Program-made: the position numbers and the translations under genes
Origin: Neelides folsomi
Taxonomy: Eukaryota; Arthropoda; Collembola; Neelipleona; Neelidae
DNA: 64,000 nucleotides
Reading direction: 5' to 3'
NCBI GenBank assembly: GCA_034687125.1
Contig: JAQGBZ010000312.1
Span: 1-64,000, forward strand
Notes under the pieces: generated by a model
Database searches by the model: none
What the model saw: only the letters and a program-made list of their open reading frames with translations
Told to the model about the DNA's origin: nothing
Shown here: in pieces, positions 4,560-59,837 of the stretch
Numbering within the stretch: the stretch's first letter is position 1
Layout: each line of letters begins with the position of its first letter

Positions 4560-5653
4560 ATTAATCAAACATTAAGTCTAACTGTGTAATTGTAAACTTT
4601 ATTAAACGCTCAGCAAAATCACTTCTGTGTTTTGAATTAAATAAATAATTGTATTTTATATTATAAAATTATAAATATCTAAAGTTTGAAATTGAAGAAA
4701 ATAGAGCTATATCTTTTGACTAAATATTAAAATATCATTTAATATATAATTACAATTTATACCCTGAGTATTTCCTAACAACTACAACTAGTTAAAAGAA
4801 ACCATGATCATTATTCCAGCCGTAGTCGTTAACAAACAATAAGCACACTACAATAAGTTTCAATTTATTAATAAAAGTAAAAGTATTTCATGAAATAAAC
4901 TCATTTTTGACAACCAGATGGAACGCCGCGCTTTTACAATTACAATTATTTAATTTTAAACCAACCAGATGACTCATTCTTTTCGTTCTTTTTCCGTTTA
5001 ACATGCAATAACAACAATTCACAATTACAATTACAATTAAATAACTTATTCGGTATTCGCGATTGCATGCAAACCAATACAATACATATAATCCATTTAA
5101 AAATTATATTCTAAAATGCAATTTTACCATGAATAATAATTGTATTAATATTGTAAAAATATAGATAATATAAATATCTGTAGTTTAACTATTCACAATA
5201 ATTATACTTCTTGGTATACATTTATATAATTTATAATATTTACACCTAAATAAAAAGGTATTGTATAATAAAAAATAAAAAATATAATTATTGGAATTTC
5301 CTATTGTGTATTAAAAACATTTCGTGTTAATTTGAACGATATAATTAGAATGGATTATTTGTAATTAGTATTAACAGTAAATAATAATGAGTTTTGAAGA
5401 ATGTCTCTGCAAGGCAGCGGACAAAAGGATTTGATAATCCCATTAATAAGGTTTAATAAGTTAATAAAAAAAGGAGCAGCGTGGAATCCCTCGGAGATCC
5501 AATTATTCCAATTGACAGCCTCCCTTTCATTCCACTGTGTTTTCCAAAGGTGTAACAAAGAAAAGGGTTCGATCATTATTTTCATTATTATTATATCATT
5601 ATCATTTAAGTCCACCACTAGAATAATGCACATATTTGGTCTGGGTCTCTTTT

Positions 5654-5735
5654 TGGATCTCTTATGATCTCCATGGAAACTATGGATCTCTTATGATCCC
5701 AATGGATCTCTTATGATCTCTATGGAGCTCTTATG
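5654..5735. repeat. Short tandem repeat, TGGATCTCTTATGATC core
   Basis: TGGATCTCTTATGATC occurs three times, followed by a fourth degraded copy (TGGAGCTCTTATGGG). Spacing varies from 20 to 29 bp, and the longer spacer contains CCATGGAAAC, an X-box half-like sequence. Confidence 0.7.
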
Positions 5736-6201
5736 GGTTTGTTAAGTCTCTATGGATCCCTATGGATTTGGATCTCATTTGGTAATTGTTGGTTTATAAG
5801 AAGTGTTAAGGGCTTTGATTTCTTTCTCCTGTGATTGTGAGTTTATTGGGATTTCACCATGGGGGGAATTTGTTTGAAGTTCCCTCAGCTCCCGTGTCAA
5901 TTCAAGCTTTTGATTCAAAGGAGACTTTCGGTTGGACTTGGATCCCCTGATGGGATTCTCCAATCCCAGAAACCAAACACACAATGGCACAATAATTAAA
6001 ATACTTTTTTTACTTCAATCCCTTTCAATATTACAATTCCTCACGGGTAATTAACAAATAATACGAGTGGTTTATTCCAATGGTAACAAACGTTACATTA
6101 CATTACCAATATTACATTTCTTTACATTTCCCTTTCAAACATTTATCTTGGATTTATTCTTTTGGACTAACATATCAATATCTTAAATATTTACATACTA
6201 A

Positions 6202-6324
6202 ATACTGCGATATCTACAATTTAAATACTGCGATAACTCCAATTTAAATACTGAGATATCTACAATTTAAATACTGCGATAACTCCAATTTAAATACTGA
6301 GATATCTACAATTTAAATATTGCG
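6202..6324. repeat. 23-bp tandem array with alternating 46-bp higher-order period
   Basis: Five 23-bp copies begin ATACTG(C/G rich)GATA and end CAATTTAA, plus a partial sixth. Two variants alternate after the first copy: one reading GATAACTCC, one reading GATATCTAC with GAG for GCG. The array is therefore a 46-bp dimer repeated about twice plus an extra monomer. Confidence 0.85.
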
Positions 6325-9097
6325 TCATTGAGATTGAGACTTAAAAAATAAGAAGTACATTAGAATATAATTAAATATTTTAGTGGGTTAATGGAATAAT
6401 TGAGCTGTCGATGGAAATAAGGACGAGGAAATTAAATGTCAGTGAATGGATGATATCAAATGATATATTGGAATTGTGAAGGGAAATTAGCTTATGGAAT
6501 CGATGAGGATTTGTAATTCTTTTTGGCAACAACAATGAAGACGTTGGTTATCAGATGAAGTGAGGGGTGATTGAGAATATTTAATAAATTGGTCATGCGG
6601 ATTGGCTGGCAAATATTTTGTTTAAACCATTAGGACAAACCACATATTGAAATTTCCATTGTTCTTTCTTTCCTCGCTCTTCATTCCACAGGGGGAAATT
6701 TGACTTTGACAAACAATGAGGCGTTAAAAGGAATTAATTAACTAAAAGTCCCTTTAAGCTCTTCATTTACAAGAACAATGAAAGGGAGATTTCAAAATCT
6801 CTCACTCAATCAATTTCACAGAAATTAAATACAATTATTAATTAAACATTTAACCATTTACGCGATTTGAATTTTAAATCTTGTAAAATTTAGATATTTA
6901 TTAAATGACGCTAATTAAGCTAAACATTTTAAAATTTCGTTAATTTTTACGATTTTACTAATTTTTTAAAATATTGGCTATTTGTTGCAAAATTGCATGC
7001 GAATTGTTAAAGAGTTGAAAAGAACTGAAAAGAGTTTACATTGGTTTTAATGGTTTTAAAGGGTTTGCATTGATTTGATTTCTTTGTCCAAATTTGGCTC
7101 CTTTGAACATAAATTGTGAAAATAAAAGTCAGGTTGAATATTGAGTTGTTTGGATGACAAAAGGAGTGATTTAGTCTGAATGGTTTTTTTCCTCGTAAAA
7201 TAAATTACACGTTTGTTGTTCTCAGTTGAGGGGTTTTTGGAAGAGAATTAGAAATTCCTTCAGTTCCTTTCAACTCATGTGGAAAAGACTTTTTTAAGGA
7301 TCGTAAATCATGTGAATTTCGTTGACACGGCGGATTCTGAGGAAAAACCACAAGAGAAATCTCTCGCTCTTGTGTGCATTGCTTTCCCACACAATTGCTC
7401 TATTCAACCAAATCAAACCTTTTTACATCACACAACAAAACCACAAGAAAAATGGCAAAAATGTACATAAAAACCCTTAAAAGAATGTTTAAACAATATA
7501 ATAACAATGTTTTCTCTATTTTTCATTTTTCAACATTTTTGATATTTATTAGATTTTTTCATAATGTTAAACAATTTTAAATAAATAGTTAAATTGTAAG
7601 TTTGTATAAATGAATATTCATTTAGTTGAGTTTGAGTTCGGTGTGGATGAAAAATGCTAAAGGGAGATTTGAATGATGGCGATTAATTGGTTTAGTTAAA
7701 TTGATCCCCAAACTCGTTTCATTTCCCTTCCTCATCAATCCACGACATTTGATTCCTTTGACATTACAAAATGACAAATCCACCTGGTTTTTCTTCCTTT
7801 GCCTTCTCCGCATTTTCATTTTTTTATTTCCTAAGAAGCCAAAACTCCTTCAACTTTGCTCAACTTTGCTCAATCTCCAATTCTCATTTCCAATTCTCTC
7901 CCAACAACCCCAAGAAACGAATTGGTGAATCAGAAATGCAAAAGTAGAACCAAACTGCTTTTAAAGTACCCAAGTGATTGACAACCAAAATTGGAATTTC
8001 GCTTCATTTAACATATTTTAACTTCATTATTATTATTATAAAAAACACCTATAATCTTTAATCCTATAAATTCCATCTTAAACGGTTGCTATCAGAAACC
8101 ACTTGATCAATCCACTTTCATTTCCCTATCTTGCATAAATATCTATAAATTTCAATATCGTCTTAACATAACAACTATAGTCTTATACAATTATATGAAT
8201 TATATCTATATCCTGTTCATTCCACAGCATCATTACATGATTACATCATACACAATAGTCACAATACTATTGTAATAGACTCTTATTGTATTAATAAAAT
8301 CTTCAATATGTTTAGTTTATATTTTATAATTATAATTAAATTAGAATAAATAGGATTAGAATAATTTGATTATTTAAATATTTGGAAAATATGTATTAAG
8401 TTAAATATTTAATTTAAGTATGTTTGGATTTAACTTTCTTTGTTTCTTTCTATTTGTGAGTTTGTTGTTTGTGAGCATGTTTGTTTGGAGCGTTGGAGAT
8501 TCCTCCTTCTGGATTCGAAGGCGGAGCTAGAAGAGACCAAGGGCCAATGGTGAATAGAGGACGGGTATTTTTGAGTGAGTGGGCGGAGCTTTCCCTCACC
8601 CTCTTTTGCTTCCTTCACCCCTTGTGAAGTTTGGTGAGTTTGAAAAGAGGGACTTTCCTTTCCCTACGGTCAATATTGGCACTCGCTAAGCAAACACTCC
8701 CACGGACACTCCAACTCCCAAACGAAACATCTTAAATATTTGAACTTACTTGCAAACATACTTCAATACCACAAACAACTAAACTTAACTTTAAAGTAAT
8801 AATTTCCAAACTCCCGGTTTATTTAAAATAATCCCGGTTAAAATCAAAGTTAAACTTATAATTTAAAGTTAAACTCAATTTCAAAACTTACATTCGGAAT
8901 TTACATTCGGAACTTAAACTCAATTACAAAACTTTAACCCAAATCTCAAAGAACAAGTTTGGATTCTTTAACTCGATCTTGTCGATCTATAACTTAAAGT
9001 GAAATTGGTTGAATTTTACAAGTTTGTAAGTGTAAAGTGAATTGTGGGAAAATGAAAGGATTCTGTGTTTGAAAACATTGTTTGAAATTATTCGAAA

Positions 9098-11772
9098 ATG
9101 CCGCGACCATCCCGGGAAAGTTACGGAGATCAGAAGCCGCCGTATTCTTATATTTCCCTCACGGCAATGGCCATTTGGTCTTCTTCGGAGAAAATGCTCC
9201 CGTTGTCCGACATTTACCGATTCATCATGGATCATTTTCCTTATTACAGGTAAATTATATTTCTTATCAATTTCATCATTTGCATCATGTTTACTTCAGC
9301 CGTAGCTTTATATACTTTTTAAATGCTTTAGAATTGCATTTTTCTTATATTTAATTTTTAGTGCATTTTTATATTTTATATCAATTTCCGTTTTGATATT
9401 TTGAAGGTTGATTTCATATAATACATGATACATGTAGTATATTTCATATAGCTATTTTTATAGTTATAGTTAGGTTATTTGGAGATTTAGTTTCCCCTTT
9501 TTACTAAAAGTGATATATCCATCATTTTGATAAGTGGGATGATTAGTGTAGGAGATTCATCAACCCTTTTGTTTAGAACCTTTGAAAAGGGTTAAACGGG
9601 GAGACGAGCGTTAAAGCGGTGAAGGAAAGGAAAAAAACAATTTTTTCCATTTTTAAACCCTTTATCAACAAAGCCGCCGTTTTTTCACCTTATTTCTCAT
9701 TTTCAAACTTGTCAAACTTTTAACACGTAAAATTAACTTTTTCTTATAACACTTTTTCTTATAACCGAAACTTGCAGCTGTAAGAACTGTAAGATGCATT
9801 ATTTTATATCAAAGTCAAGATCTAATTTGAGCATAAGAAAAATAATATCAATGTTAAAGTTACCGAACTTAACTTCTTATTATTAACATATTAACATTGT
9901 ATTCAGTATTCTTTATCTCTAAGTTAGTTACATTGTTATTTAATGTTTTAAAGAAAGATTTGTATTTAGACAAGAATTTCAATTTTAGTGAAAGATGTTT
10001 AACTTCATCACAGCAGGAGATTCCGCAATGAAAAAGATATTTAATCAGAGATTCAAAATTGAATTTGAACTATAAATTTTTTAATCCTTTTATTCTGCTT
10101 CCATTCCAAACGGAAATCATTAAAATGGAAATCTCCGAGGAAGCCAATCTGAATATCCTTAATATACTTTTACAAGTTTGTAACATTTATTACATAAGAA
10201 TACACACAATTAGTAAAAGACTATAAAAAGGTGAATTGCGGAGAATCTGGTTTGCATTGTGATACAAAGATAAGAAACCGACGTCTTTTTATTAGCTTTA
10301 TTTCCACTAATTGCGCATTATTACTCTTAAACTTATAATTATTAACATTCAAATTTCCTCTTATTTTAAACTTCCACTTCCATTTTCATCTAAACCTGAC
10401 ATTTATAGGTCGTTTACCTTAACTTTGCATTAATAATTTAAAATTACATGATTTAGTAGCCAATGGCAAGATTTAGTTAAATGACATTATTTAGTTAAAT
10501 TGACATTATTTAGCTAATTGCAAGATTTAGTTAAAATTGGCATTATTTAGATTGATTGGCATTTAGTTAGAATTGCATGATTTCGCTAATGGCATGATTT
10601 AGCTAAAATTGGCATTATTTAGTTAAGCGAGAAAAAATGGTTGAATATTAGTTAAAGTTGGGATTGGATCCTACAGGAAAAATACGCAGCGGTGGCAGAA
10701 TTCCCTCCGCCATAATTTGTCCTTCAACGACTGTTTCGTCAAAGTTCCTCGTCGTCCCGACCGCCCTGGCAAAGGCGCCTATTGGGCCCTCCACCCCAAT
10801 GCATTGAACATGTTCGAGAACGGGTCTTTCCTCCGTCGACGAAAAAGATTCAAACTCCAAAAGATCGACAAAGACGTTTTGGAAAGAACTCTCTCCGGCA
10901 ACGGCCCTTTCCAATCCTCGCCCTCCCCCGTAGAAAGTTCATCAAACCCGCCACAAACTTCGCCCCATGTTTCCTCCCCCACCCACCCGCCGATCCACTT
11001 CCACCCCCCGCACCACCACCACCATCCGAACCATCCAAGCCACCCCAACCACCCCAACCACCAACCACTTCCACATCTCCACTTTTCATCTTTCGGTCCT
11101 CCGGGAATTTTCCTCTCGCCCTCCGATCGTCTTTTTTCCAATCCTTACGCCCGGGACGCTGCGGCCGTCGCGGCCGCCGCATCTTTGTATATTCAAAATC
11201 CCCGCCCGAGTGTGAACATCAAAGACATGGAGGAGGAAGAACTGAGAATGAGCAAAGTGCTAAAGGATGAGAAGAAGAGCGAGAAAAGGCATGAAATAGT
11301 GAGGGAGGGAAGTTTCAATTCCGAAAAGCGGAAATCCGATTTTTCCATCGAGTCAATCATTTCGAAGAACAAGAAGGAAGAAGAAGAAATCGATTTAGAC
11401 GTGGAATCTTCGTGTTCCGTCGATTCGGAAATGTCAGATGAGGAAAGATTGAGCGGACGGGGCGGGAGATTTGAAATTGAAAGTAACGACGGTTCCCGCG
11501 TGGTTTCTCCAAATCCTTCACCGCCACTGAGACCCAAACAACAAATGCATTTGTTGCCTGGCAGCGGCGGGAACGGCGGGATCGGAGCGGCTGCGTATCC
11601 TTTTTATGCTGCTGCGTTTTTATCGGCCCAATCGCTCCTTTACAATCCGCATTATTTCCAACATCATCATCCGGCATTGAGTTTGCTCCCTCATTCGAAC
11701 GCTTTAAATAACCCGCCAGTTTCTGTGGGAAATCTCAACAATCCTTTGTTTTTTAATACGAAAAATGTATAA
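9098..11772 (+). CDS. FoxB: Forkhead transcription factor, FoxB class
   Basis: Two exons, 9098-9249 and 10677-11772, joined across a GT-AG phase-2 intron; 415 aa. The N terminus [20 protein letters not shown] is the FoxB signature (vertebrate FOXB1 and fly fd96Ca/Cb start almost the same way). The forkhead domain runs from about residue 13 to 109: helix 3 [15 protein letters not shown] at 57-71, wing 2 and the basic tail RRRKRF at 104-109. After it come a His/Pro-rich run (about 158-184), a short Ala run (about 212-219), an acidic stretch, and FSIESII at 273-279. That last motif fits the EH1-like Groucho-binding motif known in FoxB proteins. The protein is a nuclear DNA-binding regulator; FoxB genes pattern the nervous system in other animals. 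The intron falls right after PYYR, inside the domain. The C-terminal exon is GC-richer than its surroundings. Confidence 0.96.
10441..10625. repeat. Degenerate tandem repeat in FoxB intron
   Basis: About nine imperfect copies of a roughly 20-bp unit of the type GGCATTATTTAGTTAAAAT fill the 3' part of the FoxB intron, ending about 50 bp before the splice acceptor. Variants replace CATT by CAAG or CATG. Confidence 0.75.
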
Positions 11773-16700: not shown

Positions 16701-18635
16701 CTATGGTAATTTTACAGTTGCTATGGAGACTATTACCAGCGCAGATTATATCTGTAGATATGGATATCTGTACAGATAGTTCCTATATGTATTTAATGTG
16801 TATTTATCTTGTTGCTATATTTATGTGGTTGCTATAGCTACTTAAGATTATTAGTATTTGTAAAGAATAATTTGTATAAATATGATCAAATTCCTGAGAA
16901 GATTTTCTTATCAAATTTTAATCTCTTTTGTGGAAAATGAATGAGGAAGATTTGAGATTTGAATCTGAAGAGGGAGATTTGAATGAGAATTTAAAGGCGG
17001 AGATTTAAAGAGGGAGATTTGATAGATTTTAAAATATACCTACTTACATAAATGTATGGTATGTATTTGTGTATTATGTATGCATGTATTGTATATTGTA
17101 TTTATATGAAGGGTGTGAAGAAGCGGCGTGTGATTTTGAGATTCCAAGTGATTGGAAGTGACTGGGGGGAGGGAAGTTGTTTGAACTTGGGTGAATTTAT
17201 TTGTTTCCCCGTCTGTTGTTGTTAATTACAAGAAGGATCATTCGGCAGAGTTTCAAAGGATCCCTCCACATCCACCTTGGCCCTTCCCCACATTCAACTC
17301 CCCATTAGAGATGCAAAGGAGGATTTGGAGTTTCTCCTCCCCTGTTTACTTTTTTTATTTTGATTTATGTCCCCGGCTCTCCCTTTCCACCTTACCCATT
17401 ATCATTATCATTATTATAAACCATTCTTCTCCAAGGGGTTAACCGATGAAAAACTCCCCCGCGACACCGACACTTTTTAAAAAATATTTTTCTTTACATT
17501 TCCATATTTTATATATTTTATACAATTTCTATATTTACATACTTATATGAATTATATGAGTTTCTGTAGCGGCAAAATTTAAAAAGAAGGGAGTTTGTGT
17601 ATTTGGTCTCATGATTCTGATGGAAGAAGGCGGAGATGTAAAGGACTGGTAAGGGGCAATAAATATTTAGACAGATAGAAATTCGACGTTGGCCCAAGAC
17701 GTTGTTTACTCCTTTAACAAGTTTGAATGTAAATGAACGTCCGCCCCCATTCACACTTCCCAACATTCCCAACCTCCTAGACCAAACTCCTTCTTTCATT
17801 TCTCCTATCACATTCCAACAAACGAACAATCAACTCAAAACAAGGGACGATCAACCTTTCAATTATTCACATTTTTTTAAACATTCGCGCGTAGGAGGAA
17901 AAACAATCCTTATTTATCCACCGCAATATTTAAATATTGCCAATATGACCAAAATCTCCAAAATCACCAAAACTTTTATCCAATATTAGTTTTATGGGAG
18001 AAATCTCATTAGACAATTTTTTAATTTTATTACTTTCTAAACATTAACATAAATTTATGTACTTAAATATTTACTGTTAAACATTTTAAATTCAAATACT
18101 CTGCTTGCAATTAACTAAATTTTATAAACCTTGCTAAACTAAAATTTTTAAAATGGCGCTAAAGTCAAGATTTTGAAAATAATAAAATAAATGGAGATGA
18201 AGTTTTAAGGAACAGCTGGCAAAGGTGTAAATATTGATACTATAGGGGTGTAATTTAGTTTATTTATTAGACTTTTCTCGTTTTGGGTTCTCGGGGTTTT
18301 GTTGGAGTGTTTGAGTATAAATGGAAGGTTTGTTTTAATTGGAAGTTCGTTGGGTGTAAAGGTGAGCACAAGAGGCGTCGTGGCATCTGCCATCATTTTA
18401 AACACCCTCCATCTCCACCAATAGGCCAAATGGAATCCTGAAACAATATTTGAAGACGATGCGGGGGAAATTACATTTAATTGTGTTATATAAGGGAAGG
18501 TGTGTTTGTGAAGGGCCTCCTCCATTATTTATGGCCATAATAAACTGGGAGGTTCGGAGATGACATATGCTCCGATTTAAATCTCCTATGATCATTATCC
18601 ATCCAAAGATACCCCCAAGGGCCGGCGACTTACAA

Positions 18636-18767
18636 TAACCATAGAAACCATATTAAATGTAACCATAGAAACCATATAAATATAACCATGGAAACCATAG
18701 AAATATAACCATAGTAACCATATTAAATATAACCATAGAAACCATATAAATGTAACCATGGTAACAA
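18636..18767. repeat. Tandem repeat of AACCATAGAAACCATAT units
   Basis: Five to six copies of a 22-30 bp unit carry (A)ACCAT(A/G)G(A/T)AACCAT followed by an AT spacer. The core is the same half-site family as the X-box-like palindromes seen elsewhere in the region, here locally amplified. Confidence 0.75.
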
Positions 18768-19321
18768 TACACTTGTAAATATAAGAAATATATTAAAGTG
18801 AAGAGTTGTAATATAAGAAAATATATGGTATGTGTAAATGTATTAGTATATTTATGATATGGGCAAGTGAATGTTTCGCCTCTGGTTTCACACTTTACGA
18901 TGGAGGTCGAAACACGTTTTTCCAAAGGTGTCGGAGAATAATTGTGGTTCGTATAATAGATTTGTTCCTCCCGTCTTATCTTTTAAAACATCTCCAGGAG
19001 TGATAGGGCCAGTGAACATATGGAACCCCTTTTTATATAACTAAAAACATAACTATTTACTTCTTCAATTTAATCATTACTGATTTATTGCAAATTAAAT
19101 CACATTTATATACACCCCAAATACAAAACATATATTTGATTAATATTTGAACATCCCGCGGGATCATAATAATTACATGTTCCATCACATGTTATAACCA
19201 TAACAAGAACAGATATAAGATATATATTTCAATTTTTTTAAAAATATACGCATGCAGTTGTACTTATGTAACTATGTATATTTTATATATGGTATATATT
19301 TAATGTATGAGTATGGTTTAA

Positions 19322-25300: not shown

Positions 25301-27375
25301 CCATTAAACTTACCATAATAATAAATAAATAAATAATAAATAAATAAAAATTTCCACACAAATTCAAAATTTTAAATTTCTCGGTTATTTACCAACTAGT
25401 TGAATATTTAGCTTACAAAATCAATTATAAAAGTAATCTTAATCTAAAAAATAATTAATTTTAGATAGATTAATTAAGATTAATGAAATTTTTGTTATTT
25501 TGTTACCATTGTCATTTGTCTAAATATTGTAAAATGGGTATTTAATTAATCAAATGAAGGGCGGAAATGTTTAAATGATAGAAATAAATCCTAAGCGGAT
25601 TATGTCTGAATAAATTAAGGGGGCGGTGAATTGAAAAAGTCCTTAAGGGGAATTTACAAGTTTCTTTTTATCTTTTCTCATCAAGTTCATTCCATGTCGT
25701 TTGCAGGCGTGTATCAACACATTAAAACCTTTGTTCATTTATCCCTGTGTGGGGATTCCGTGAGAGCTGATGAGAATCCAATTGATTCCAAAGGAGTTCC
25801 GTGTGGATTAAAAACCGGCGACTTTTGTTGAAATTGAAGTAGACACACAATCACTCCCGTTTCTCCTCCCATTCACGTCCTCCTTTTTTCATCTTCTTCA
25901 AGTCTTAAACTCCTCGGAATCATTTGGATTCAATGCACGGAAAAGAACCAAATCGTTTCTTAATTACGGATCTCCTACATGGGAACAATAACATTCCCCT
26001 ATTAAATTTGATGTCCTATTAAACAATTTGTAAGCAAATTACTTTGCTCACAACAATCACCAATTCTTTCTAATAAACAGGAAATAAATTTGAATTTATG
26101 GCAAATACAAATAAATCCCACCTTTTAATTTTTTCAAATATTACTAAATCTCGCCTTTAAATATTTTAAATAATACTAAACCCCGCCTTTTAATTTTTTA
26201 AATAATACAAAATCTAGCCGTTTCAATTCTTAACATTGATATTAATTTGAAGTTTGGGATTACAGATGGAGGGAAAATTCAAAATTTAGGTTATTGCGGG
26301 TTAGTATTAGGTTATTTTTTTAATTTGGGGTGGCGGGTAACTTTGAATTTTGTAGGAAGTTGGGTAATTTAAAAATTGAGGACTATTAGAATAATATGGG
26401 TAAATAGATGAGTATAATGTTTGAATAGTTGTTATGGGTGGCGGGGAATCCTTTTGTCTCTCCAGTGGGAGTTGGTTTGTTATTAATATATAATTAATGT
26501 AGTTTTGGATGGCGGGGTTCGAACCTGTTCCTCTCCACCCAATTTGTTTTATCTTCCCCTCCATTTGCATATAATGAGGGTGAAGGAGGAACCAACGGCG
26601 GCGGCTCACCTTTTCATTTCCAACAAAGACGACAACTGGCTATTAACCCCTATTCATCAATCCCCTTAATACGATGAGTTTCTCCCCGACGTTCTCACCC
26701 TCATAATTAATGGACACATTAACCGAAAATGAAATTATTCACCTTACTCAAAACTAAACTCATTTACATATAAACTTACTTTTTTATAACATTTACCCTT
26801 TACATTTATTTAATATTTTTTATTGAAATTAATTTAATATTCTTAATTCTTACTTTTATTTAAATTTATTTAATATCGCTACTTTTATATTATACCTAGA
26901 ATATTCTATAGGTATTGATAATGTATTTGTTAAATGAAGTAAAAGTTTTCGAAAAAGAGGGAAAGTTGTAAGGTGCGAAAAGAAGAATTGAGGTCCAACG
27001 TTGGAATTCATTTAGGAGCTCGTTGTAACAATTAGGAACTTCAACCCTCCCCGCCTTCTTTTACGATCTTCCTTCAATTGGAGTCCTTTTTTAAATCCAC
27101 ACTCCAAAACTCTAAACCTTCAACAGTTTCACATTTAACACCGCAAAGTTTAAAAGCTTAAATCAACTTAAATGCTTAAACTAAGAGCTTAAATCGTCCA
27201 ATCACAACAATGGAACTAAACCCAGAACTATTGTTTTTAAATATATGTTTAAATGGTAATAAAATGATGTTGCTCGGGTTACATTATAATTAACAAAATT
27301 GCTCATATCTCGTGTCAATTACAGACATTGGGAAATTCGCAAACATATTGGCTATTGGCATAAAGGCACGCTATA

Positions 27376-27470
27376 GAATTAAGTATAGGATTAAGTATGG
27401 GATTAAGTATGGGATTAAGTATGGGATAAAGCATAGGATAGTGTATAGGATTAAGCATAGGATTAAAAGT
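27376..27470. repeat. 12-bp tandem repeat GGATTAAGTATG
   Basis: Eight contiguous 12-bp copies; the first copies are nearly identical and the later ones drift (GGATAAAGCATA, GGATAGTGTATA). Because the period is a multiple of three, it is open in one frame as an IKYG repeat. I regard that as a by-product, since no start, splice site or domain supports a gene. Confidence 0.85.
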
Positions 27471-28066: not shown

Positions 28067-31000
28067 TATATGTATATTGTATCACTGGATTTAGTCCTCT
28101 TGTGTTAGAAATAGTATTTTGTTATTTTGTCTGATGATTTTGATGAGTTGATGGCTAATGAGTTTGTAAGGAGCTGTAGAGGACTTGTAATGCGTGAAAT
28201 GGGGATTTCTTTTCTTGGTGGTCAATTAAGGGGAGAAAAAACCGACGGCCACCTCGGAGAATTCCCCTATCAACTTCTGAAGCCCAAATTCCCATTAACC
28301 TCCCTTTGTAGCTCCCGGGGTTAAAATTTAATTTGCTCTGGAGGAATAATGAAATTAGAAAAATGTGAAATTCCCTCCCTGATAAATTGAACTTGATGTT
28401 CAAACCATTACAATTGGAACATCAGTGTCAGTTCAAACCTTCAGAAATTTAATTATTATATAAATTACTTACAGATCACTTCTAATTACAACAACTGCTA
28501 CTGAAAACTTCTTTTAATTTTATTTTGAATCTTCCGCCCAATAAAATCAAAATCTTAAACTCAATTTAACAACATTAAATACATACTTAAATATACAAAA
28601 TTCGAAAATTCACAATATTAATTTAATGATTATTATTCATTAAATTCACCAGTCCTTTTAAAGTTTAATATTTGAAGAACTTGTTGCCAAAAAACAACAA
28701 ATCCTTCCTAATGTAAATGTAATAAAATGATTAACCTAGAGATTCTGTCTGATTATTGCAAATTAAGTGAAATTGAGTAAAAGTGTAAAAAAGTAGGCGG
28801 AGGATTTGAATAAATTGAAGTTGTTTTGGAATAATGAGTTAAGTGACTTTATTATGGCTCAAAGGACAAGGTAGACAATAAAGGAGTGAAAAGAGAAATG
28901 ATTAATGAGACAAGTCAAAGTGAATTTCATAGGAAACACAAATCCCCATTCTCATAGATCCCATACACTTCAACCATTAAACATGATAATATCAATCCAA
29001 TATATAAAGTAATATAAACTACACTTTAATAAATGTCTAGCTTATACACACAGCGTACAAATCATACAGTGTATGCATATTATAAATATATGATATAATG
29101 CATATATAAACTAAACAATCCCTACTATGTTTATTGTACTCTTTGCATTACAACAATCATAATAAAAGTGTGAATAATATTTACATACAAGAAGCCAATC
29201 CGTTTCCATATAAGATATACTAAAAAGTATACAGTGTAGTAGAAACAATGAGTAGAATACAATACTATATATAACATGAATTAAAGAATAAGAATATTAT
29301 ATACATACCTATAGATATAATATGTTTGAACATAATGTAAAGGGTTTGACTCGCGAATGAATATTTTAAAAGCTGAGAAGGAAGAAGAAGAATAAATGTA
29401 TTGTTATATTCTCCCCCGACACTTTTGTGACGGGATTAATTAATTGCTCAAAATGAAGACGTGATGAATTGACGAAGAATAATCAATTACACTCAGAGGA
29501 AGTCATTAAGGAACCAAAGGCTTAATCGAATTATAATGATGACACGATCACAAAACATCACTTTTTTCAAACAACTCCTGAAAACTCCAAAAAACTAAAA
29601 AATACTATTAATTTAAATTACCCGCCTTTTATCAATTTTTTGTTCCTAGGTAACCAGTTACACTTTTTTGAAAAACAGTAGTAAAATTTAAATGTTAATA
29701 CATACATTGCATTTAATTAATACCATACATTGTATTAATTCCATACCTGTATTGTAGAGTATTGTAATTGTGCAAATATTTGAATTTTGAATAATGAAAA
29801 ATTGTTTATGGTTTTGCATTATCGAGTTCTCTTTTCATGTTTGTTGTTTTACATTGATTGGACAAGATGTTCTAATAAAATTGATTAATTTTCTCGTGCA
29901 AGTGTCAATGAAGGGAGTTGATTGTGGCTTTATATTATTCATTAACCTCCCAATTTGTTCCCTGTTTGTACAGAGGTATTGGAGATCTTCTCAGATCTTC
30001 TCAGATCTCCATGTAATCTCAGTTGATTAAATATTCCTTGGGTGTTGGGTGGCGTGTCATGTTGGGCCAAACAGGTTTAACGCCTTTCATTACCAACCTC
30101 CGCCAATGAGCAAATACAAATCTGACCAATTAAAAATAAATGATAAAACCAAACCTATTGAACTGATTTGTGACCGTACAAAAATTCTATTCACATTCAT
30201 ATTACATAGGAATAATATTACATACAATATACTACATATACTAATATATCTAATGTATTACATATAATCACATTGTACCTGTATTATTGTAAATTGTATC
30301 TGTATTAGTATAGTATTGTAGCATTGTATAGTAAATATATAATAGTGTATTCATATATTAATTTCCTATTTTGTATTTTATGTTCTTGTTAGATAAATAA
30401 TGTGTAATGGTTGAGTTTTAATCCCCAGTGTAATAACTTGACCTGGGCAGTGGTTTAAACAGTTATTGTAGTTGAATGATGAAATAAAAGGAATATTAAA
30501 CCCGGTATGTTCTGCATATCCAAGTTGGAGAGAGATCGTATTTCATCCCCGTGACATTCTAATGATAGGAGAACATTCGCCGTTCCAAATTCCCCTCATT
30601 GCAATTTCAGCCCGCGTCCCAGCAAATACATTCACCAGACATGAGAGAGAAGTTAATGAGCCAAACTTACAACTACTAAAGTCAATCCCAATTCAGTTGA
30701 ACCTCAATTAAAAAACAGTTCAACTCCTCTTTGCATTATTTCCACAGCTCTTCACTCACAGTAATTAGTCACATTGGCATTAATTCATAAATTCATAAAT
30801 TATCACCTCGATGTTTAAAATTTCAAATTCGGTAGCTTTAAGCTAAAATAAGAAAGATTTAAATGTAAGCAGGAAGATTTGAATTTGGTTAAATTTGAAA
30901 TTGAGGGATTTTTTTAAAAATGGCTAGATTTGTCTAAATAAAGAGAAATTTCTCTAATTAAGCGGGAAATTTTAATTATTTAATAAGAAGAATTGTTTAA

Positions 31001-31537
31001 TTAATAGGGTGGTTATTTCCAATGGTCATAAATCTGAATGGAAGTGATTGAACTGTGGATCTTGGTGGGTTTTTGAGTAATGAGGAGTTTGGAATTTTTA
31101 GTTTTGGAGGGTCAGGTGTGAAGGCGGCGTCCTTTGATTTCCCCACTCCTTGGAAGGAGATTTGAACAATTTGAAGGGCCTTCTTTTCTCCCTTCTCCGA
31201 TGTTTCTCCGTTGGTTCTCCAGCGACCCCTTCGACCTCAGCATTCCTTTGGATCCAAATACCCACTCATTACCAAACTCCCCAAACACTCAAAACTAATC
31301 TCCTTAGCCACCTCATTAAACACACACACGCGGAACACATTCCCAATAAACACTTTTTTCACTTTCCCCAAATCCAAAAAATCCATAAACCTTAACGGCT
31401 TTTAACCCATTTCTAAATCATAAATTTATCATAAAATTAACCATAAATTTGAAATTCCTTTTAAATTCCTTTAATAGACAAAATGAACAAAATCTAATAT
31501 ACAATTTTAAAAAAATATTTCCCGCTAAATTTATTTA

Positions 31538-31684
31538 GTTGCCATGGTTACTATCATTACTAGCTTACTACCACTTTACTATTACTTTAATAATGTTTAC
31601 ATTTGTTATAAGATTCGCTTTGGCAATTGATGGTTGCTAAGGAAATTAACAGCCGCGGCGGTAAGCGATGGTTGCTATGGTAAA
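31538..31684. promoter_or_regulatory. X-box-like cluster
   Basis: GTTGCCATGGTTAC at 31538-31551, a weaker GTTGCTAAGGAAAT near 31633 and GTTGCTATGGTAAA at 31671-31684 lie in one AT-rich linker between two skew islands. Confidence 0.4.
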
Positions 31685-35227: not shown

Positions 35228-35265
35228 GTTACCATGGAAACATTACCAAGGATTGCCATGGAAAC
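35228..35265. promoter_or_regulatory. Two X-box-like sites
   Basis: GTTACCATGGAAAC at 35228-35241 and ATTGCCATGGAAAC at 35252-35265, 24 bp apart start to start, followed by a weaker GTTACCATGAAAAC at about 35276. The first is identical to 41310-41323. Confidence 0.45.
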
Positions 35266-38200
35266 ATTATCTTGGGTTACCATGAAAACAATTTTTATCG
35301 TTTAGGGCACAATTTAAAAAAGAGGTAAATTTGGTCATTTGTAAATTTGAGCCTTTGTAAAATAGAAATATTGTGTATTGTGTAAAAAGTAACGTTTTTG
35401 GGTGAATTAATGCCGTTGTTAATCTCCTTGTCAACAGTCCATTATGAAGATTTGAGTTATGGAGGGAAGTTTTAAATTCTCCGCTCATCGCCGGAAGGAA
35501 TAAATGAGGAAAGAGGGAAAGAATTATGTCATCCAATATTTTATTTGTCTCCACTCCCTGAAGAAAAAGAAATTCCCCATTCCTCTTTCGGCCCATTCAG
35601 CCCTTTGTGCAAACTTGGGACATTAGAAGTTTTAAAGAGTCAAAAAGTTTTTATTATTCCGACTCTGTCCATTATTTATACGACGCTCCTTCGAATAACA
35701 ATTTACCTTTAATGAAACCATGGAAATGAAACTAATTATTCCCATTTAAACTATTTATATTTAACATTATATGGTTTTTATATTTAATCCTAAAATATAT
35801 GAGTTTGTAATAGCAGTGTACAGTGAAGCTAAATTCTGATATATAGTAATCATATAGGTATTGTACATATTATTATGTAGGTAGGTATAGAAAGTGCTAT
35901 GGACAATTTAATAGAAAGCGATTGGGCGGGAAGCGATGAAAATTTCCACCCAATTTGCTACCAAAATCTCCGAAGTTGAGTTTTGCATTAGCGGAATTAC
36001 CCGGGTTGAGTTTTTATGACTTTTCTCTTTTTATGTCCAAAGTGGCTGTGGTGAGATTTGGGAGCTTTGGAGAGATTTGGGCTTTGGGAACTTTGGAGTG
36101 TTTGGAGTTTCTGTGTTTTTGGTTAACTTCTAGTTTGGGTGTTTTTTGGTTTTTGGGGTGTTTTTGATCCGACCGGATCTTCCACTTTGTCTCATTCACC
36201 CCAATGAACCAAATGAATCAAAATGTGAAAAGAGACCCCTTTTTTATGAACACCCTTTTGAGACTTCATTAAGGCCCCTTTCAATTCCCCTTCACTCCAC
36301 GCACAACAGCTGCTTTCATTCACTCCCAAAACAACATTCATTCACTCGGGTTAAACACTTAATCCCACAAAACATTCAAATATCCGCGCCGATTTACTTC
36401 TTTATTTCTTATGCTTTTTATACACATGTGTACTCTTGAATAACTAATGTGAATGACATTATCTTACTAGACATTATGTTACTAGATATCATGTTACAGA
36501 CATTATGTTATTAATAAGCTTAATAATGTTATATAGTATAGATATAGACATTTGTAGATAGATTTAATGTGTGGGTTCCATATACGTTTATGGATGTATT
36601 TAGAGAAAAGTGTCGTTTGCACTCAATCGGAACTTCACGCCTCTTTTTATGGCCCAATAAAAAAAAGTGAAAAAGGGATGTTAATTGAGTAGGGCAATAA
36701 AAAAGAGAATTGGGAGGCTCAATAAATAAATGTCTTTTTCACTCATCATCAAACACATTTATCCAAAATGTTAAAGTTCCCAACACGCGGTTTCATAAAT
36801 ATTTATGAGATCGTCAAAAGCAGTCAATTGATATGAAATTAAAGAATGCTATAAAAACTCATCAGCTATGAATTCAATTCCCCCGCGTATTTCAAATGTG
36901 ACAAATTTGGACATTAAAATTTAAAATCTAATTCAAAGTTTATATTGAGCCGAAATGTAATTTCATTATAAATTAACCGATTTGAATTTATAAATTTTAG
37001 TGGTTTTGGTCTCCCATGAGAGGACCCGAGCGGTTTAATTAAAAGTTGTAAAAGAAGCGTAATTTTATAGTTAGAAGTTCAGGAACCGGAACGTCGTCGC
37101 TTTGGAGTTGGGAAATTAGACGTAATTGAATCTGTCAGTTTAAATTATTAAATTATAGAGATTCTTCACAATTTAAGAAATTGGGGAGATTTGGGGAATG
37201 TGAATCAATTTATCATTTAGGGGAAATTAATTTGAATCTCCCTCCACCTGTCCACCTGACTCTGAGCGCCCCAAATGAACCGCGAAGCACAAATTGATAA
37301 TTTCCTTCTTTTCCTTGTTCATGTTGAAATTGAAGAATTGTTAAAGAAAAGTCACCCAATTTCCGCCCATAAAAATAATTTAAAATATGCCGCGTGGAAA
37401 AAATGTGTGCTTTATTCACTTCAGTCCCATTTGCCTTCTTGGGGCCAGTTTGGGTATTTGGACAATTTTGATGCTTTTAAGGGAAACCCCTCGCTGTGAA
37501 GGATTTTAAACCTCAGTTGACTCTTTTATATTTATAAAGAATGGGGAACTATATAATGCCCTCAAGTATGACAAAGTATACATTCTTTTGTCGTTAAGCT
37601 TACAATCAGTTTCTTTAGTTACCATTGCCATAGTTACAAATTACAAACCATGTTACCATAGCAATAAATTCTAATACAGTATAATAAATACATACCCACA
37701 GTATAAAATATATATATACCTAGTATATATTTAATGTTTATGTATGTATGTATATATAAAATATGTACAATATAAATAAAATAATGTATGTACATTGAAT
37801 ATTATAATTGTATGTTCTGTTCATGTAAGGTGTTATTGTCCGTGTTGGATGTTAAATTCAATTTGCATCCTTGTCACTCCATAGCAACCATTGAGATTTG
37901 GACAATTGTAATAATTGTCTAAATGCATTAAACCCTCCACTTCCTCACCTCATTTCCATGGAGATCCAAATCCCTTTTTGCACACAACAAACTTCATCCG
38001 CTCCAAATCCATTTAAATCCTCACCGCAAATAGAGTGAAGCGGGAGAACCGGCAAATTTAAAAATTACTCATTCACCTCCATGAAAACGCATATTATACA
38101 TATATGAATAATGTGAATAAACTGAATAGAATTCTTTATACACATTTACCTCATACCTTTACATACATCTTACATACATCTTATATATTAGTATATTCTA

Positions 38201-38408: not shown

Positions 38409-38475
38409 TAGAAGAACTTAAAGGAACTTTAATGTTAGAAGAACTTAAAAGAACTCAAAGGAACTTGAAGGAAGG
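38409..38475. repeat. GAACTTAAAGGAACTT short tandem repeat
   Basis: Purine-rich units of 10-16 bp (AGAAGAACTTAAAGGAACTT) are repeated about five times with drift. Confidence 0.65.
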
Positions 38476-40514: not shown

Positions 40515-40610
40515 AGTACAGATATCCAATAGTACAGTTTTACATACAATAGTACAGATATACAACAGTACAGATATACAAAAGTAGAGATATCAATTAG
40601 TACAGATACA
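40515..40610. repeat. AGTACAGATATACAA tandem repeat
   Basis: Six imperfect copies of a 14-20 bp unit with core AGTACAGATAT. Confidence 0.75.
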
Positions 40611-41309
40611 TAATTTCATAAAGCCCATAAATTTAAAAATATTGTACAAAGTAAATAACTAACAATAGGATTTATACCGTTAAGTTTAAGGAGTTAAGAA
40701 TGAAAATTAAGGATAGAATTAAGCATGGAATTAAGAGGGAATTTTGAATGAGGGCAATTAACTTTCTATGAATGAGACAAAGGGAGTGAATGACAAATGA
40801 CAAATGAAGGGACCAATGAAGAGATTGTGTGTATGTAAAATGGGTCGAAAGGAGGTAAAGTAGAAACTTGAGTGAATGAGGTTGTTTGTAATTTGAGGAT
40901 TACGGGGAAGGTGCGAAGTGTCGGTTTGGGCGTCGTTTGAAGTCGGTGTTTTCCTGTGAATAAACCAATATTGTTTGGAAGTTGTTTTGGATGAATGGAG
41001 AAGGCAGGAGGAGTAATTGGGTTGGCCCGGGAAGGGCACCGAAGTCAATTGCCTTCCTTCCCAAGGAATCTCGGGGTGCCCTCGAGGGAAACACCTGAGA
41101 CTTTCCGGCGACCCAACACCCTATTTATATGCTAATGCTCCCCGAGGACCCGCTACTATCCACAACACATTCCTCCCTATACCAAACTCACACTTAGCAC
41201 CAGACGGAACAAAAAGAAATCCCATATCGATTCCACTCACTTTACTATTCACTAATAACTACTCTTACTAACACTCCGACTCTTCGGTTAATATGGTTTT
41301 ATTCTCTTG

Positions 41310-41323
41310 GTTACCATGGAAAC
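41310..41323. promoter_or_regulatory. X-box-like palindrome
   Basis: GTTACCATGGAAAC, identical to the site at 35228-35241 six kilobases away, and again in an AT linker. Confidence 0.4.
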
Positions 41324-44310: not shown

Positions 44311-44411
44311 AAATATATTAAATACGATATATTGTATGGATATATTAAATACTGTATATTTTATAGACATATTAAATACAATAGGTTGTATAGATATATT
44401 AAATATAATAA
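44311..44411. repeat. 27-29 bp tandem repeat, ATATATTAAATAC core
   Basis: Four imperfect copies, each starting ATATTAAATA and ending in a TTGTATAG/TTTATAG segment. Confidence 0.75.
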
Positions 44412-47400: not shown

Positions 47401-47743
47401 CAAACTCCTTGTCAAACCTTTCAAATCTCCTATCTTTATTTTATTACATTTTTAAACATTACTCACAGTTTCTACTCAGAAATATTAGCACAATAGACGC
47501 TAAACAACTTAAAGCTTTAACAAATAAATTAATAAACAATTCCCAAATAGGTTTTAAAAATGATTTGTATAAAAATTATTAAAATTAAAACTGTAGCTAT
47601 GGTAACAACACATTAAGACTAATTTATTAAATAACCAATAAACTAGTAATTTCTTATCTGTAACTATAACAACTGTTATCAATTTAACTATTGGTAATCA
47701 TGGCAACTATAGTTGTATCTATGGTACATGGTGATGTACTCTG

Positions 47744-47766
47744 GTAACTATGGTTACTATGGTAAC
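47744..47766. promoter_or_regulatory. Overlapping X-box-like palindromes
   Basis: GTAACTATGGTTAC at 47744-47757 overlaps GTTACTATGGTAAC at 47753-47766; the second is palindromic except in the centre. More half-sites lie at 47,600 and 47,840, so this linker holds at least four copies. Confidence 0.4.
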
Positions 47767-48953
47767 TTTATAACTGTAATCATTGAGATAGAAATAGTAT
47801 TTTAAGAACATATTGCAAATTTGCAATAGACTCGTTACTATTACTATGGTTGCTATGGGTTACTAAGGTAAAGTATGGTTAGTTAGTTCAAGAATAAATT
47901 AGATTTTAAAATATGAGGTTGGATTATTTATGTATTGTAATTGTGAGTTTGTGGTTATTGACAGGTGAATTGGGGAGTGATTGGTGGCGCATAATGAAAT
48001 GATCCAAGAAGTTGATAAATTCATTAAAGATTCCTCTCCATATGGAATTCTTCATTACACTTTACATTATTTATGCGAGACGTTTTCTCCCTGATGGCAA
48101 TCAATATGTTATCAATATCAACTAATGCATACATTCTCTTCCAAATTGCATCGCGGCTATAATCTACAATGTATAATATATTCAAATGTCTATATAATAC
48201 ATTCTAATATATAATCACAATATCTCCAATATAACATATATTTAATATACAAATACACATATTATAATACACATACAAATACATATATTGTAATATTATA
48301 ATATATGTATTATTCATGCATCGATTGGAAGAATGTCTTTCATACGATCTTATTTTGAATGTATTATTTATTTCTATCTTGCTAATGTATTGGATCAAAG
48401 GAGTTTGTAGACAATAAAGATCAGTTTGTTGAATGCAAATGAGATTGGTAATGATAGTCAATAAGGGATTTTGATAGGAGCCGAACGGTGGGGATTTTGG
48501 TTGTTATGAATTGTATATGCACAGGTGGACGTTGTTCTGTGTGATGATTCCCTCGGTGTAATTTGGAATGATGATGGTCATTAAGGTGAGATTCTCCCAT
48601 CAATCCCACCGCCGCCAGTCACACAATTCCCCATCAAACACCTCCGACAGAATATCACAATATTGATAGGGATGGAGAAACGATAAATCTCTGCACTCGT
48701 AAATCAAACTATCGGGACCATCAATAATAAGAATTTTATAATGATTTAATCACAATTTAACCATAATTTAATAAATACGCACTTTTATGATTTTATCAAT
48801 TTAATTAGATCTTTTCCAATATGATCACTTTCAACTTCTCTCATAAATTATCTCCAAATTAAAATTCCTATGAATTAAAATTAAATTCTCTATAAATAAA
48901 AGTTTTATATTAAATTAAGAGTAAATTGAAATTAAATAGAATGATTTTATTTG

Positions 48954-49050
48954 GTTTCTATGGTAACATTAAGGACATTGAGATTTATGCGGTATTAAAA
49001 TTAAAATTAAAATAAAATTTAAATTTAAAATGGTTGGTTTCCATGGCAAC
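48954..49050. promoter_or_regulatory. Two X-box-like sites
   Basis: GTTTCTATGGTAAC at 48954-48967 and GTTTCCATGGCAAC at 49037-49050, on either side of a T/A-rich spacer and just left of the island centred near 49,270. Confidence 0.4.
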
Positions 49051-51672
49051 GAATGAGGATGAGAAGTCTAGAATTGCATTTTATAGTCTTTTTGTAAGGG
49101 AAGTTTTTAAAGGAGTGAAAAGCACACTGAAGAGCCGGCGGAAATGATTTAGGTAAATTGGTTCTTTTGGTTATTAGCCCAAGTGTGTAATTTCTCTGTC
49201 GACCGGATTCTTGGATTGGAAGTGAATTGTGTAATTGTAGTGAATGGGCGGGAGGGCGTGTTTTAGTTTTGTCCTCCAGGGAAGGCGTCTTGGAAGTTCA
49301 CCTGTTCTTTTCCCCGCCTTCCTAATTCCCCTCTCATTACAAAATGATCACCAGGCGGTGACAACTTTATTCACTCACACTTCGGGGCATAGGAATTAAC
49401 CACAACACTCACAACCACGTTTTTCAGTTCTTAAATCTAAATTTCACAATAAATACACACCTGTATAAACTCTTACGTTACCATAGGAAACAAAAGCATT
49501 GGATTTAAACATTGAATTTGACCATAGGAATAAAACCATTGAATTTAAGCATTGAAAACCATTGGAATAAACAATAAATAATTTGGTAGTGTATTGTAAT
49601 AACAACCATTGGTTTCTAACTAATTTCTCTTTGAGTGGTCAGTTAGTAAATTATAAATGCCGCTCATCGCCCCTGGTTAAAAGGAGGGAATGGTCAATAA
49701 TTAAAATTTCCTACCTTGTTCGTGCCATTGGGGGATTTAATGGGCTCGGATGGTTTGAATGCCTTTGGATTGTCTTAATGGGGGAGGAGGAAAAAGAGGA
49801 GGTTTGTCACATCCAAAGAAGGAAATTCAAAGACGGCGCGAGAGAAGTATCATTAGAGGACTATCATCAGCTCCTTTCTTCCTTTGGGCCTAAGAGGAAA
49901 AAGGTCAAACGGGTCATTAGTGTCATTATTCCCATTATGACACTCGTGCTTGGGCATTAACAATATATTTAATGATCCAAAATGATCTTCAATTGGACTT
50001 TATTTAATTGGAATTTTGGTAATGACGCCTTCTACAAAACGCAGAGCTGCATTGTTCAATTCAACTATCATTGCTCTTTAATTGAGAACATTTGGATCAA
50101 GTTTAAACAATTGAATTTTCGTTGCCATGGTGATAATCAATTATCTAATGCAGTTTCTATGGGAACTTTATAGAACTTTGCATAGCAACCAATTTATAAC
50201 AAATAGCAAACAATTTGTTACGCATGTTGCCATAGCGACTAATTTTATAGTTATAGCAATGTCCATAGAAAAACTTTAATTACCTAGCAACCAAATACTG
50301 TTACTTTAGAAACTCATGAAGATCACAATTACTAAATATAAAAGACTTGTGAATAAAAATAAAAAGAGAAGAAAAAGATAAAAAGAGAAGAAAAAGAAGA
50401 TTTTTATGGGAATTGGAATTTACATTAAAAAAGTATTTTAATTTCTATTTCAATAGGAATCTCCGCTTTGTCCATTTAAATCCAATTGTGTAAAAAATGC
50501 AAAGAGGGGAATTGGAATTGGAGGTTTCTAATAAACGGAGAGAAAAAAGTTCATTTCCAATTTTCAATGTGTTGGTTGAAAGAAGATCGGCGAGAAGAAG
50601 AAGATTGAAATGATTAAAAGATGGGGAGTTGAATGAATCGAACATTTCTTTGTTTCCCATACCGATCCTTCTCCCAGGATGAAAAGAGTGAAGAAGTGAA
50701 TGGATTTCTTAGGATGGATCAAATGACTCAGGATTTGTTCACGGAGTAATTCACCGCCCACGTTGGATTTAAACCGATTTGCCGACAAACAGAAAACAAT
50801 TATTTTCTTTGCCGTCCTTTCCCATACAGATTTCAATTTCCCATCTTACACTCAATAAAACTCAAATCGTTAAATTTTAAAGCATTTTAAATAATTCTAA
50901 ATTAAATAATTATTGGTAAATAAATTAATAGTTAATTGAGTTAAAATTTACATTTTTCGATGTAATAATTAACATTGAATAGTTTATGAAGAATAGAATT
51001 ATTTAAATTTAAACAGTCTATTTGAATTATAGTGGTTTGGAAGTGATGAAAGAAGTTTTTGTTTGGAGACAAAGAAAGCAATTAATGGGTCCCTTTTGTA
51101 TTCCCACGGGCAGTTTGGAACAACTCGGTAATTCACGACGAATCATTCCCACCGTTTTTTACAACGCTGGGTGATTGAAGTTCAATTAAGGGCTGAAATT
51201 GCTTGGTGGACAAAATTACTTCATTCCTCATATCGAACTTTTTGATTTCAACTATTATTTATTAATATAGGAAATTGAATTTTATGTTATTTTAATTATG
51301 TGTGTATATTAATTATGTGTATATTATATTAATTATTATCCATTTTACAAAGTGAAATGAGTACGTACTCGAGTAAATGCGGAATCTCTACAATTCGGCT
51401 AATGGGTCTAAATGAGACATTAAATGTTAGTTACGTTGCAATAATATGGAATATTGTATTCTTATCACTATATACTTGGTTGCGTATGACTAGATCTAGC
51501 CCCGACAAATACTATTTACGAATACTGAAATACAAAAAGGAGAAACTAGGAGAAATATATATATTATGTTTTTATATAATAGAAAATAGAATAGAAAAAA
51601 TAAATATACAAATACAGATACATTTTTACAAAATATTAAATTATCTATTCAAGTATTTTTCAAAATATCAAA

Positions 51673-54350: not shown

Positions 54351-54359
54351 TTAAAGAAT

Positions 54360-59835: not shown

Positions 59836-59837
59836 AG

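Follow-up and report, generated by a model that had tools for sequence, protein, structure and literature searches.

Strand-polar skew islands alternate with AT-rich linkers across the FoxB region of Neelides folsomi

Analysis of a 64,000-nucleotide stretch of Neelides folsomi DNA (the window) revealed that the non-coding DNA at 5.6-51.25 kb is built of islands alternating with AT-rich linkers, and that the islands share one strand polarity, running from G-rich to C-rich. This architecture and its polarity are real, and the skew architecture is independent of repeats, foldbacks and single words. Also observed directly were the alignment of the polarity on RFX-type X-boxes and its recurrence at two Hox-like and two other loci, with a weaker form elsewhere. 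In a literature search, judged largely from the opening parts of abstracts, no earlier description of polar skew islands was recognised; PMC7403616 is not relevant here, since in its accessible part "GC skew" denotes GC enrichment. Short divergent initiation at accessible linkers is tentatively favoured as the explanation of the skew, and a transcription-independent chromatin-border mark is its main rival.

Architecture and polarity of the islands

About 63 islands (median 307 bp, 39.7% GC), a count that includes runs truncated by the limits of the two decoded pieces, were found to alternate with 62 linkers (median 297.5 bp, 24.2% GC). A matched filter detected 56 G-to-C switches inside the domain (three within the FoxB gene) and 50 C-to-G switches (two within FoxB), and the estimate of some 40 islands in the first-pass annotation is replaced by 56-63. 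Outside the domain the filter returned one switch each way, both belonging to the arms of an inverted repeat of 245 nt. Local GC was 42% at G-to-C switches and 24% at C-to-G switches, in accordance with the earlier placement of the reverse switch in AT-rich linkers. The standard deviation of smoothed GC skew was 0.0989 within 5.6-51.25 kb, compared to a mean of 0.0425 and a maximum of 0.0458 in 100 local shuffles, which answers the proposed shuffle check in favour of the pattern, and the autocorrelation was -0.47 at lag 301 and +0.21 at lag 651. In the left flank the standard deviation was 0.0437 (shuffles 0.0389, maximum 0.0511) and in the right flank 0.0435, just above its shuffles (0.0382, maximum 0.0428). 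The zinc-finger genes at 51.3-64 kb are without islands, which was counted against divergent initiation.

The six hand counts behind the first description agree in G minus C with a 60-base table (36061, +18; 36301, -13; 31081, +17; 31261, -23; 40861, +19; 41161, -15). A uniform polarity, claimed there for every island inspected, was upheld by two approaches. In a block sign test 58 of 60 blocks were positive (p 0.0005, the lowest value attainable with 2000 draws), as compared to 5/7 and 9/17 in the flanks; sign flips of blocks served as the null, since random reverse-complement flips preserve island polarity and are useless for this purpose. A three-state HMM with free transitions gave 62 N-to-G, 108 G-to-C, 61 C-to-N and 47 C-to-G transitions, and zero N-to-C and zero G-to-N transitions within either decoded piece. 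The order G-then-C exceeded the reverse order by 128.9 nats inside the domain and by 1.0 nats in the flanks, where the fitted arm state is not G-rich and the value thus shows only the absence of anything similar. The island half-difference was positive in 57 of 63 islands, which is partly built in by the segmentation and is given no weight as evidence. Of the described passage from G/T-rich to C/A-rich, the G-over-C component stands while T over A is only slight: the correlation of GC and TA skew was 0.24, and the fitted arm has A 0.314 and T 0.310. From linkers to outward half-islands, G rises from 0.121 to 0.250 and C from 0.121 to 0.147, whereas A falls from 0.379 to 0.292 and T from 0.379 to 0.312. 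Inside the window, TATATATA (22), GCGGGAAA (only 6), TAATTA (63) and TTTATGG (15) occur at divergence points, and CAGGTG (21), GGCGG (57) and GAGTTTG (27) at convergence points.

Such words raise the possibility that the islands are enhancers or conserved non-coding elements under regulatory selection, with the polarity as a by-product of site orientation or spacing. E-box, GC-box and GAGTT words are indeed enriched in islands, and invertebrate conserved elements cluster at developmental genes with A+T shifts at their borders (PMC1852409). However, the skew survives masking of nine enriched words (0.103 to 0.100), and of 16 contexts, 15 favour G in outward half-islands over linkers while the remaining one shows no difference. 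Moreover, the enrichment of GAGTTT over shuffles is of similar size in either orientation (91 vs 39.9; 28 vs 14.2), so the orientation of this word follows the skew. Regulatory selection as the source of the polarity is accordingly given little weight. The conserved elements resemble the islands as non-coding blocks at developmental regulators with composition changes at their borders; they differ in that the accessible part of PMC1852409 describes no strand polarity, and the likeness here is drawn from one genome.

A degenerate foldback or dispersed repeat family, the alternative raised in the first-pass annotation, would account for a skew that is symmetric under reverse complement, and the best score between separate islands was slightly in excess (45 vs 37 resampled). 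Yet complementarity between the arms of the same island was 19.9 across 53 islands, compared to 19.7 when the arms came from different islands, and the alternative was rejected at the alignment sensitivity used; the probability left to it is close to negligible. Three higher all-against-all scores (416, 154 and 144) were discarded as mutually overlapping windows.

Table 1. Coordinates of the domain, example islands, X-box-like and other arrays, and FoxB exons in the window.
Feature	Position	Strand	Remarks
Domain of alternating linkers and polar skew islands	5600..51250	.	FoxB gene interrupts it
FoxB exon 1, N-terminal part of forkhead domain	9098..9249	+	Exon end read by eye
FoxB exon 2, rest of forkhead domain to stop codon	10677..11772	+	Exon start read by eye
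Tandem array of RFX-like units, period ~23 bp, in linker	18635..18769	.	Ends at C-to-G switch 18773
32-bp tandem array with CCCGCC in linker	26112..26214	.	Left of C-to-G switch 26236; CCCGCC presumably E2F-like
Example island	30831..31408	.	G run 30831-31127, short C and G runs, C run to 31408 (HMM)
Three RFX-like sites at C-to-G switch 31586	31538..31684	.	First in linker, two at start of next G run (31622)
Three X-box-like palindromes 24 bp apart	35228..35289	.	Direct C-to-G junction 35247/35248, no linker state called
Example island	35972..36390	.	G run 35972-36168, C run 36169-36390 (HMM)
Example island	40679..41285	.	G run 40679-41036, C run 41037-41285 (HMM)
Two exact X-boxes	48954..49050	.	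48954-48967 in linker, 49037-49050 at next G run start; C-to-G switch 48939

RFX-type X-boxes and other loci

The window holds 53 matches to GTTNCYATGGNAAC palindromes, which we take to be the RFX X-box consensus, as compared to 0.92 expected, all between 13186 and 50313. They lie mostly in or beside linkers: of 37 places, linkers hold 26, G runs 10 and a C run 1, a modest excess in the linker state (circular shifts gave 19.8 +/- 4.0, and 78 of 1065 reached the observed count). Their distance to C-to-G switches is not significantly short (p 0.12), and they keep away from G-to-C switches (p 0.007). When the skew was aligned on X-box clusters, outward G-C was positive in 17 of 21, with a mean of 0.063 (null mean 0.000, s.d. 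0.017) that none of 3000 random placements reached; at L037-L040 it was positive in 4 of 5 clusters. The polarity directed outward from linkers, as first described, thus stands in its geometry and agrees with the X-box clusters; of the two causes then proposed, divergent transcription may apply and replication was judged very unlikely.

In 75 Mb the exact X-box occurs at 24 places, seven of them in this window and four on the Hox-like contig, and genome-wide 36 strand matches contrast with 11 for the reversed control. The genome encodes RFX DNA-binding domains, with 4 matches spread over 3 contigs; an intradiol dioxygenase was looked for as well and gave no match. These palindromes and predicted RFX domains are shared with known RFX X-box sites, from which the putative sites described here differ in being clustered across FoxB and Hox-like loci; this clustering points to a possible role of RFX at developmental loci. 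The same islands were found at four loci chosen for carrying X-boxes, two of them on the Hox-like contig (an apparent Hox cluster of the same animal, sampled in two parts), and the scope of the first-pass annotation is hence corrected to extend beyond FoxB. Twenty hand-picked stretches without X-boxes showed weaker polarity, with p < 0.05 in 15, and therefore the effect is broad and strongest at the X-box loci sampled.

Divergent initiation and its rivals

Following this, we propose that 5.6-51.25 kb would be a developmental regulatory landscape in which the AT-rich linkers serve as accessible cores occupied by factors, many of them containing or adjoining RFX X-boxes, and islands are the GC-richer DNA separating adjacent cores. 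From each core, short divergent transcription like that of enhancers or promoters would proceed outward for up to ~200 bp, and the strand displaced by this proximal transcription would gain G across generations, so that the skew would point away from cores and adjacent fields would collide head-on within islands. Accessibility, RFX binding, transcription and the mutational origin of the skew are what we infer in this proposal. It would require germline transcription at FoxB and Hox, which was counted against it.

At transcription starts the skew switches sign across the zone of initiation, and it is the non-template strand running outward that has the G excess. The sign change at the zone and the outward G excess are common to both; the islands differ in being iterated every ~650 bp over tens of kb of non-coding DNA, in accompanying introns without GC skew and in being known from sequence alone. 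A review (PMC10030826) deals with divergent transcription and with the strand skew found at transcription starts.

Gene starts gave mixed results. A C-to-G switch lies at 8949, 149 bp upstream of the FoxB ATG, and the ATG-aligned profile of 13 genes, with the start codon chosen visually in genes that offered more than one in frame, was mostly C-rich from -400 to -160 and G-rich in the last 80 bp, with a GC peak at -440. The predicted sign was found in 8 of 13 starts (p 0.0016, in windows chosen after seeing the Ras profiles), and a small second set, five values from 12 Fox loci scanned (+0.136, -0.318, +0.032, -0.018 and 0.000), gave no confirmation of this result. On the coding strand, Ras-family introns have no G-C skew (-0.006, z -0.7; 11 intervals, 9 loci, 3234 bp) and the FoxB intron has 0.001; therefore transcription in general leaves no such mark. 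A slight T excess in the Ras-family introns (T-A +0.030, z 2.0) was counted for divergent initiation, and against it that no fading of skew with distance from the linker was visible. Oriented core-promoter words were not found, the counts of TATAAA and TCAGT being without orientation.

The chromatin-border signature supposes nucleosome-depleted linkers and islands with one to three positioned nucleosomes, where mutation, repair or selection tied to the border would be strand-asymmetric independently of transcription. The lack of GC skew in introns favours it, and a general effect would fit the weaker signal in 15 of the 20 hand-picked stretches. Human nucleosome-inhibiting barriers are AT-rich, 36-450 bp long, with GC-richer flanks and distances quantised by 153 bp (PMC4966569), and their GC values (26.5% in barriers, 42.5% in 300-bp flanks) resemble those of linkers and islands. 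Additionally, yeast nucleosomal DNA has strand-asymmetric, palindromic base profiles about its centre, as the islands do, although these span one nucleosome core (~150 bp) and not ~300 bp (PMC4422121). Contrarily, the accessible part of PMC4966569 describes no G-over-C skew for the human barriers, which are rather evenly spread, whereas the islands are strongest at some loci. Judged by eye, the lengths of the 63 islands look continuous, with no ~150 bp quantisation seen; G-to-C switches inside islands have a median spacing of 98.5 bp (46 spacings), and a clear 10-bp AA/TT/TA periodicity was absent from the islands. Taken together with these points, the chromatin border is considered somewhat unlikely, though it remains the main rival.

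Recombination hotspots, with breaks at island centres, GC-biased conversion and strand-asymmetric damage of resected strands, would predict the correct polarity, and the G-to-C switch does coincide with the GC peak. However, some 56-63 hotspots in 45 kb would be needed, and deamination predicts C loss and T gain, whereas in the arms G rises, C hardly changes and T shows no gain; this explanation is distinctly improbable. In replication the leading strand carries a G excess, which the polarity would match if origins lay in the linkers, but the skews would average out unless an origin every ~650 bp were active in most cells, and replication from linkers is very unlikely. Judged on geometry, recombination and replication are both unlikely causes of the skew.

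Implications for developmental loci

A wider reading, which we regard as unlikely on balance, is that developmental loci (FoxB and at least part of Hox) carry a DNA-encoded polar punctuation in which AT-rich cores, many of them bound by RFX, recur every ~650 bp, each with a strand-polar field of ~200 bp on both sides. If this is true, divergent cores and convergent islands would follow one another along the landscape, and accessible cores would leave in the polarity a heritable record, legible in raw sequence without epigenomic data. The finding raises the testable question of whether regulatory strand asymmetry is written by transcription or by chromatin. Should the skew mark accessible regulatory cores, the sequence by itself could reveal enhancers and their edges in animals that lack functional data, and the germline activity of regulatory DNA would be recorded in strand composition.

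Polarity and composition of the islands around FoxB

The first-pass annotation had described islands of uniform polarity at 5.6-51.25 kb and none in the flanks of the window, and the G-minus-C differences of its six hand counts match our computed table. In this island domain the standard deviation of the skew exceeds that of local shuffles more than two-fold, and the skew alternates, its half-period being close to 300 bp. With a matched filter, 56 switches ran from G to C (at 42% GC; 53 excluding the FoxB gene) and 50 from C to G (at 24% GC; 48 excluding it); the flanks (18 kb) held one switch of each kind, both within the inverted-repeat arms at 53.4-54.35 kb. Since alternation by itself carries no direction, polarity was tested as the sign of the skew relative to GC content in 700-bp blocks: 58 of 60 blocks in the domain shared the same sign, as compared to 5/7 and 9/17 in the flanks, which bears out the uniform polarity.

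A three-state model (linker, G run, C run) with free transitions settled on the order linker, G run, C run, linker, decoding 62 linker-to-G, 108 G-to-C, 61 C-to-linker and 47 C-to-G steps and, inside either decoded piece of the domain, zero linker-to-C or G-to-linker steps. With symmetric versions, the forward order was preferred over the reverse by 128.9 nats in the window, the free version reaching equal likelihood; in the flanks the difference was 1.0 and the fitted arm state was not G-rich. In the segmentation, the island runs number 63, with a median length of 307 bp, and the linkers 62, with a median of 298 bp; these counts and medians include runs cut at the ends of both decoded pieces, and 53% of the domain is linker.

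From linkers to outward half-islands, G increases from 0.121 to 0.250 and C slightly to 0.147, while A drops from 0.379 to 0.292 and T to 0.312; in switch-centred profiles T is roughly constant over the outer arm and A declines. The skew is therefore one of G over C. In the window the excess of T over A is small, and in four further loci (L037-L040) the arm state obtained by fitting holds slightly more A than T, so that of the G/T-rich to C/A-rich polarity proposed earlier only the G over C part stands in full. G was in excess in 15 of 16 flanking contexts, the sixteenth being equal, and the skew persisted when nine enriched words were masked (0.103 to 0.100). The degenerate foldback repeat family suggested as an alternative was rejected at the sensitivity of this comparison: the two arms of an island were no more complementary to each other than to arms of other islands (19.9 vs. 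19.7), and matching all islands against all revealed no repeat family that could be aligned. Non-overlapping windows reached a top score of 45, slightly above the 37 of resampled arms, a margin consistent with short words in common.

Other features of the window
Feature	Position	Details
Two long open frames	913-3965	minus strand; 720 and 206 aa
Short tandem array	6199-6324	23 bp units; inside island domain
Short tandem array	26112-26214	32 bp units; inside island domain
Short tandem array	27372-27466	12 bp units; inside island domain
Repeated C2H2 zinc-finger coding units	51600-64000	two open frames Pfam-confirmed; related copies; no skew islands
Inverted repeat	53445-53689 and 54106-54350	245-nt arms, 93% complementary, 416 nt apart

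The inverted repeat, whose arms contain 40-bp tandem units, is perhaps a mobile element. Neither minus-strand open frame had a Pfam match at E 0.001; the second looks BTB-like, judged by eye.

X-boxes and the Hox-like contig

Windows around C-to-G switches were enriched in CCATGG flanked by GCAAC or GAAAC, which we take to be the consensus X-box of RFX factors. With one mismatch allowed, the window contains 53 strand matches at 37 places, confined to 13186-50313, compared with 0.92 expected. By segmentation, linkers hold 26 of the places, G runs 10 and a C run the remaining one; given the linker share of the domain and a circular-shift null of 19.8 ± 4.0 (78 of 1065 shifts as high as 26), the association with linkers as such is only suggestive. 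The profile aligned on X-box clusters, a landmark independent of the skew, gives a clearer link: outward G-C was positive in 17 of 21 clusters, a result that none of 3000 random placements equalled, and in 4 of 5 clusters of L037-L040.

In 75 Mb, the exact pattern gave at least 36 strand matches, compared with at least 11 for the reversed control. The matches fall at 24 places or more; seven of these lie within the window and four on the Hox-like contig C20, in the stretch from 24.9 to 106.2 kb. Paired half-sites gave 47 matches vs. 21 in the control, among them 10 on C20, 3 on contig C312 and 2 on contig C93, which bears homeodomain matches; part of the remainder resembles low-complexity sequence. 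C20 is read as a putative Hox cluster because it has nine homeodomain matches and the homeobox in its locus L038 is followed by what we take to be the UbdA peptide known from Ubx and abd-A. This Hox peptide and the gene families present mark the source as an animal, probably an arthropod. Four matches to RFX DNA-binding domains, on contigs C139, C161 and C34, mark candidate genes for the X-box binders.

Spread of the polarity through the genome

L037-L040, selected for containing X-boxes, show the same islands (32/32 blocks positive, 50.8 nats over 24 kb). Twenty hand-picked 10-kb stretches, in which no X-box was found at one mismatch, were weaker in polarity (183/260 blocks; p < 0.05 in 15 stretches, not in 5), with 32.9 nats over 200 kb. 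Per kb this amounts to 0.16 nats, vs. 3.0 for the window and 2.1 for L037-L040, a loose comparison because the hand-picked set had fewer fitting rounds, included coding DNA and gave a purine-rich arm state (A 0.37, T 0.22). Two of its stretches, L031 and L032, were fairly strongly polar (0.49 and 0.51 vs. 0.70) and X-boxes are thus dispensable for polarity. These results indicate a polarity that is widespread in the non-coding DNA of this genome and peaks at the sampled developmental loci.

Possible origin of the skew and known relatives

The skew may stem from short divergent initiation at the linkers, a reading we favour tentatively, which is supported by the island polarity and by the ATG-aligned profile of 13 genes, in which C prevails for the most part between -400 and -160 and G over the final 80 bp. 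These starts came from 10 of 17 Ras-family stretches (seven without a clear start codon were left out), FoxB and two long open frames; in L045, L050 and L053 one of several in-frame start codons was chosen by eye. Gene-start skew was positive in 8 of 13 genes (p 0.0016, with windows set after viewing the Ras profiles), and in a second set of 12 Fox loci the five values, with uncertain starts, were two positive, two negative and one zero. Divergent initiation is opposed by the lack of G-C skew in intron intervals (gaps between domain matches, which may include coding edges; T-A +0.030, z 2.0), of oriented TATAAA or TCAGT, and of islands across the zinc-finger genes (51.3-64 kb). If transcription writes the skew, its action would be restricted to the vicinity of its start. 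The main rival, which we hold to be somewhat less likely, is that a mark at chromatin borders writes it instead; this would account for the unskewed introns and for the wide, weak polarity signal, but not for the absence of visible length quantisation. Selection, recombination, replication or something else jointly take up the probability left by divergent initiation and the chromatin border.

Each ingredient has a known relative: skew at initiation sites (PMC10030826), nucleosome barriers that are AT-rich and lie between GC-richer flanks (PMC4966569), nucleosomal base profiles of palindromic form (PMC4422121) and shifts in composition where conserved elements end (PMC1852409). Within the top-ranked open-licence literature, we recognised no account of polar islands repeated across developmental loci, and we therefore regard the pattern as a new form of known phenomena.
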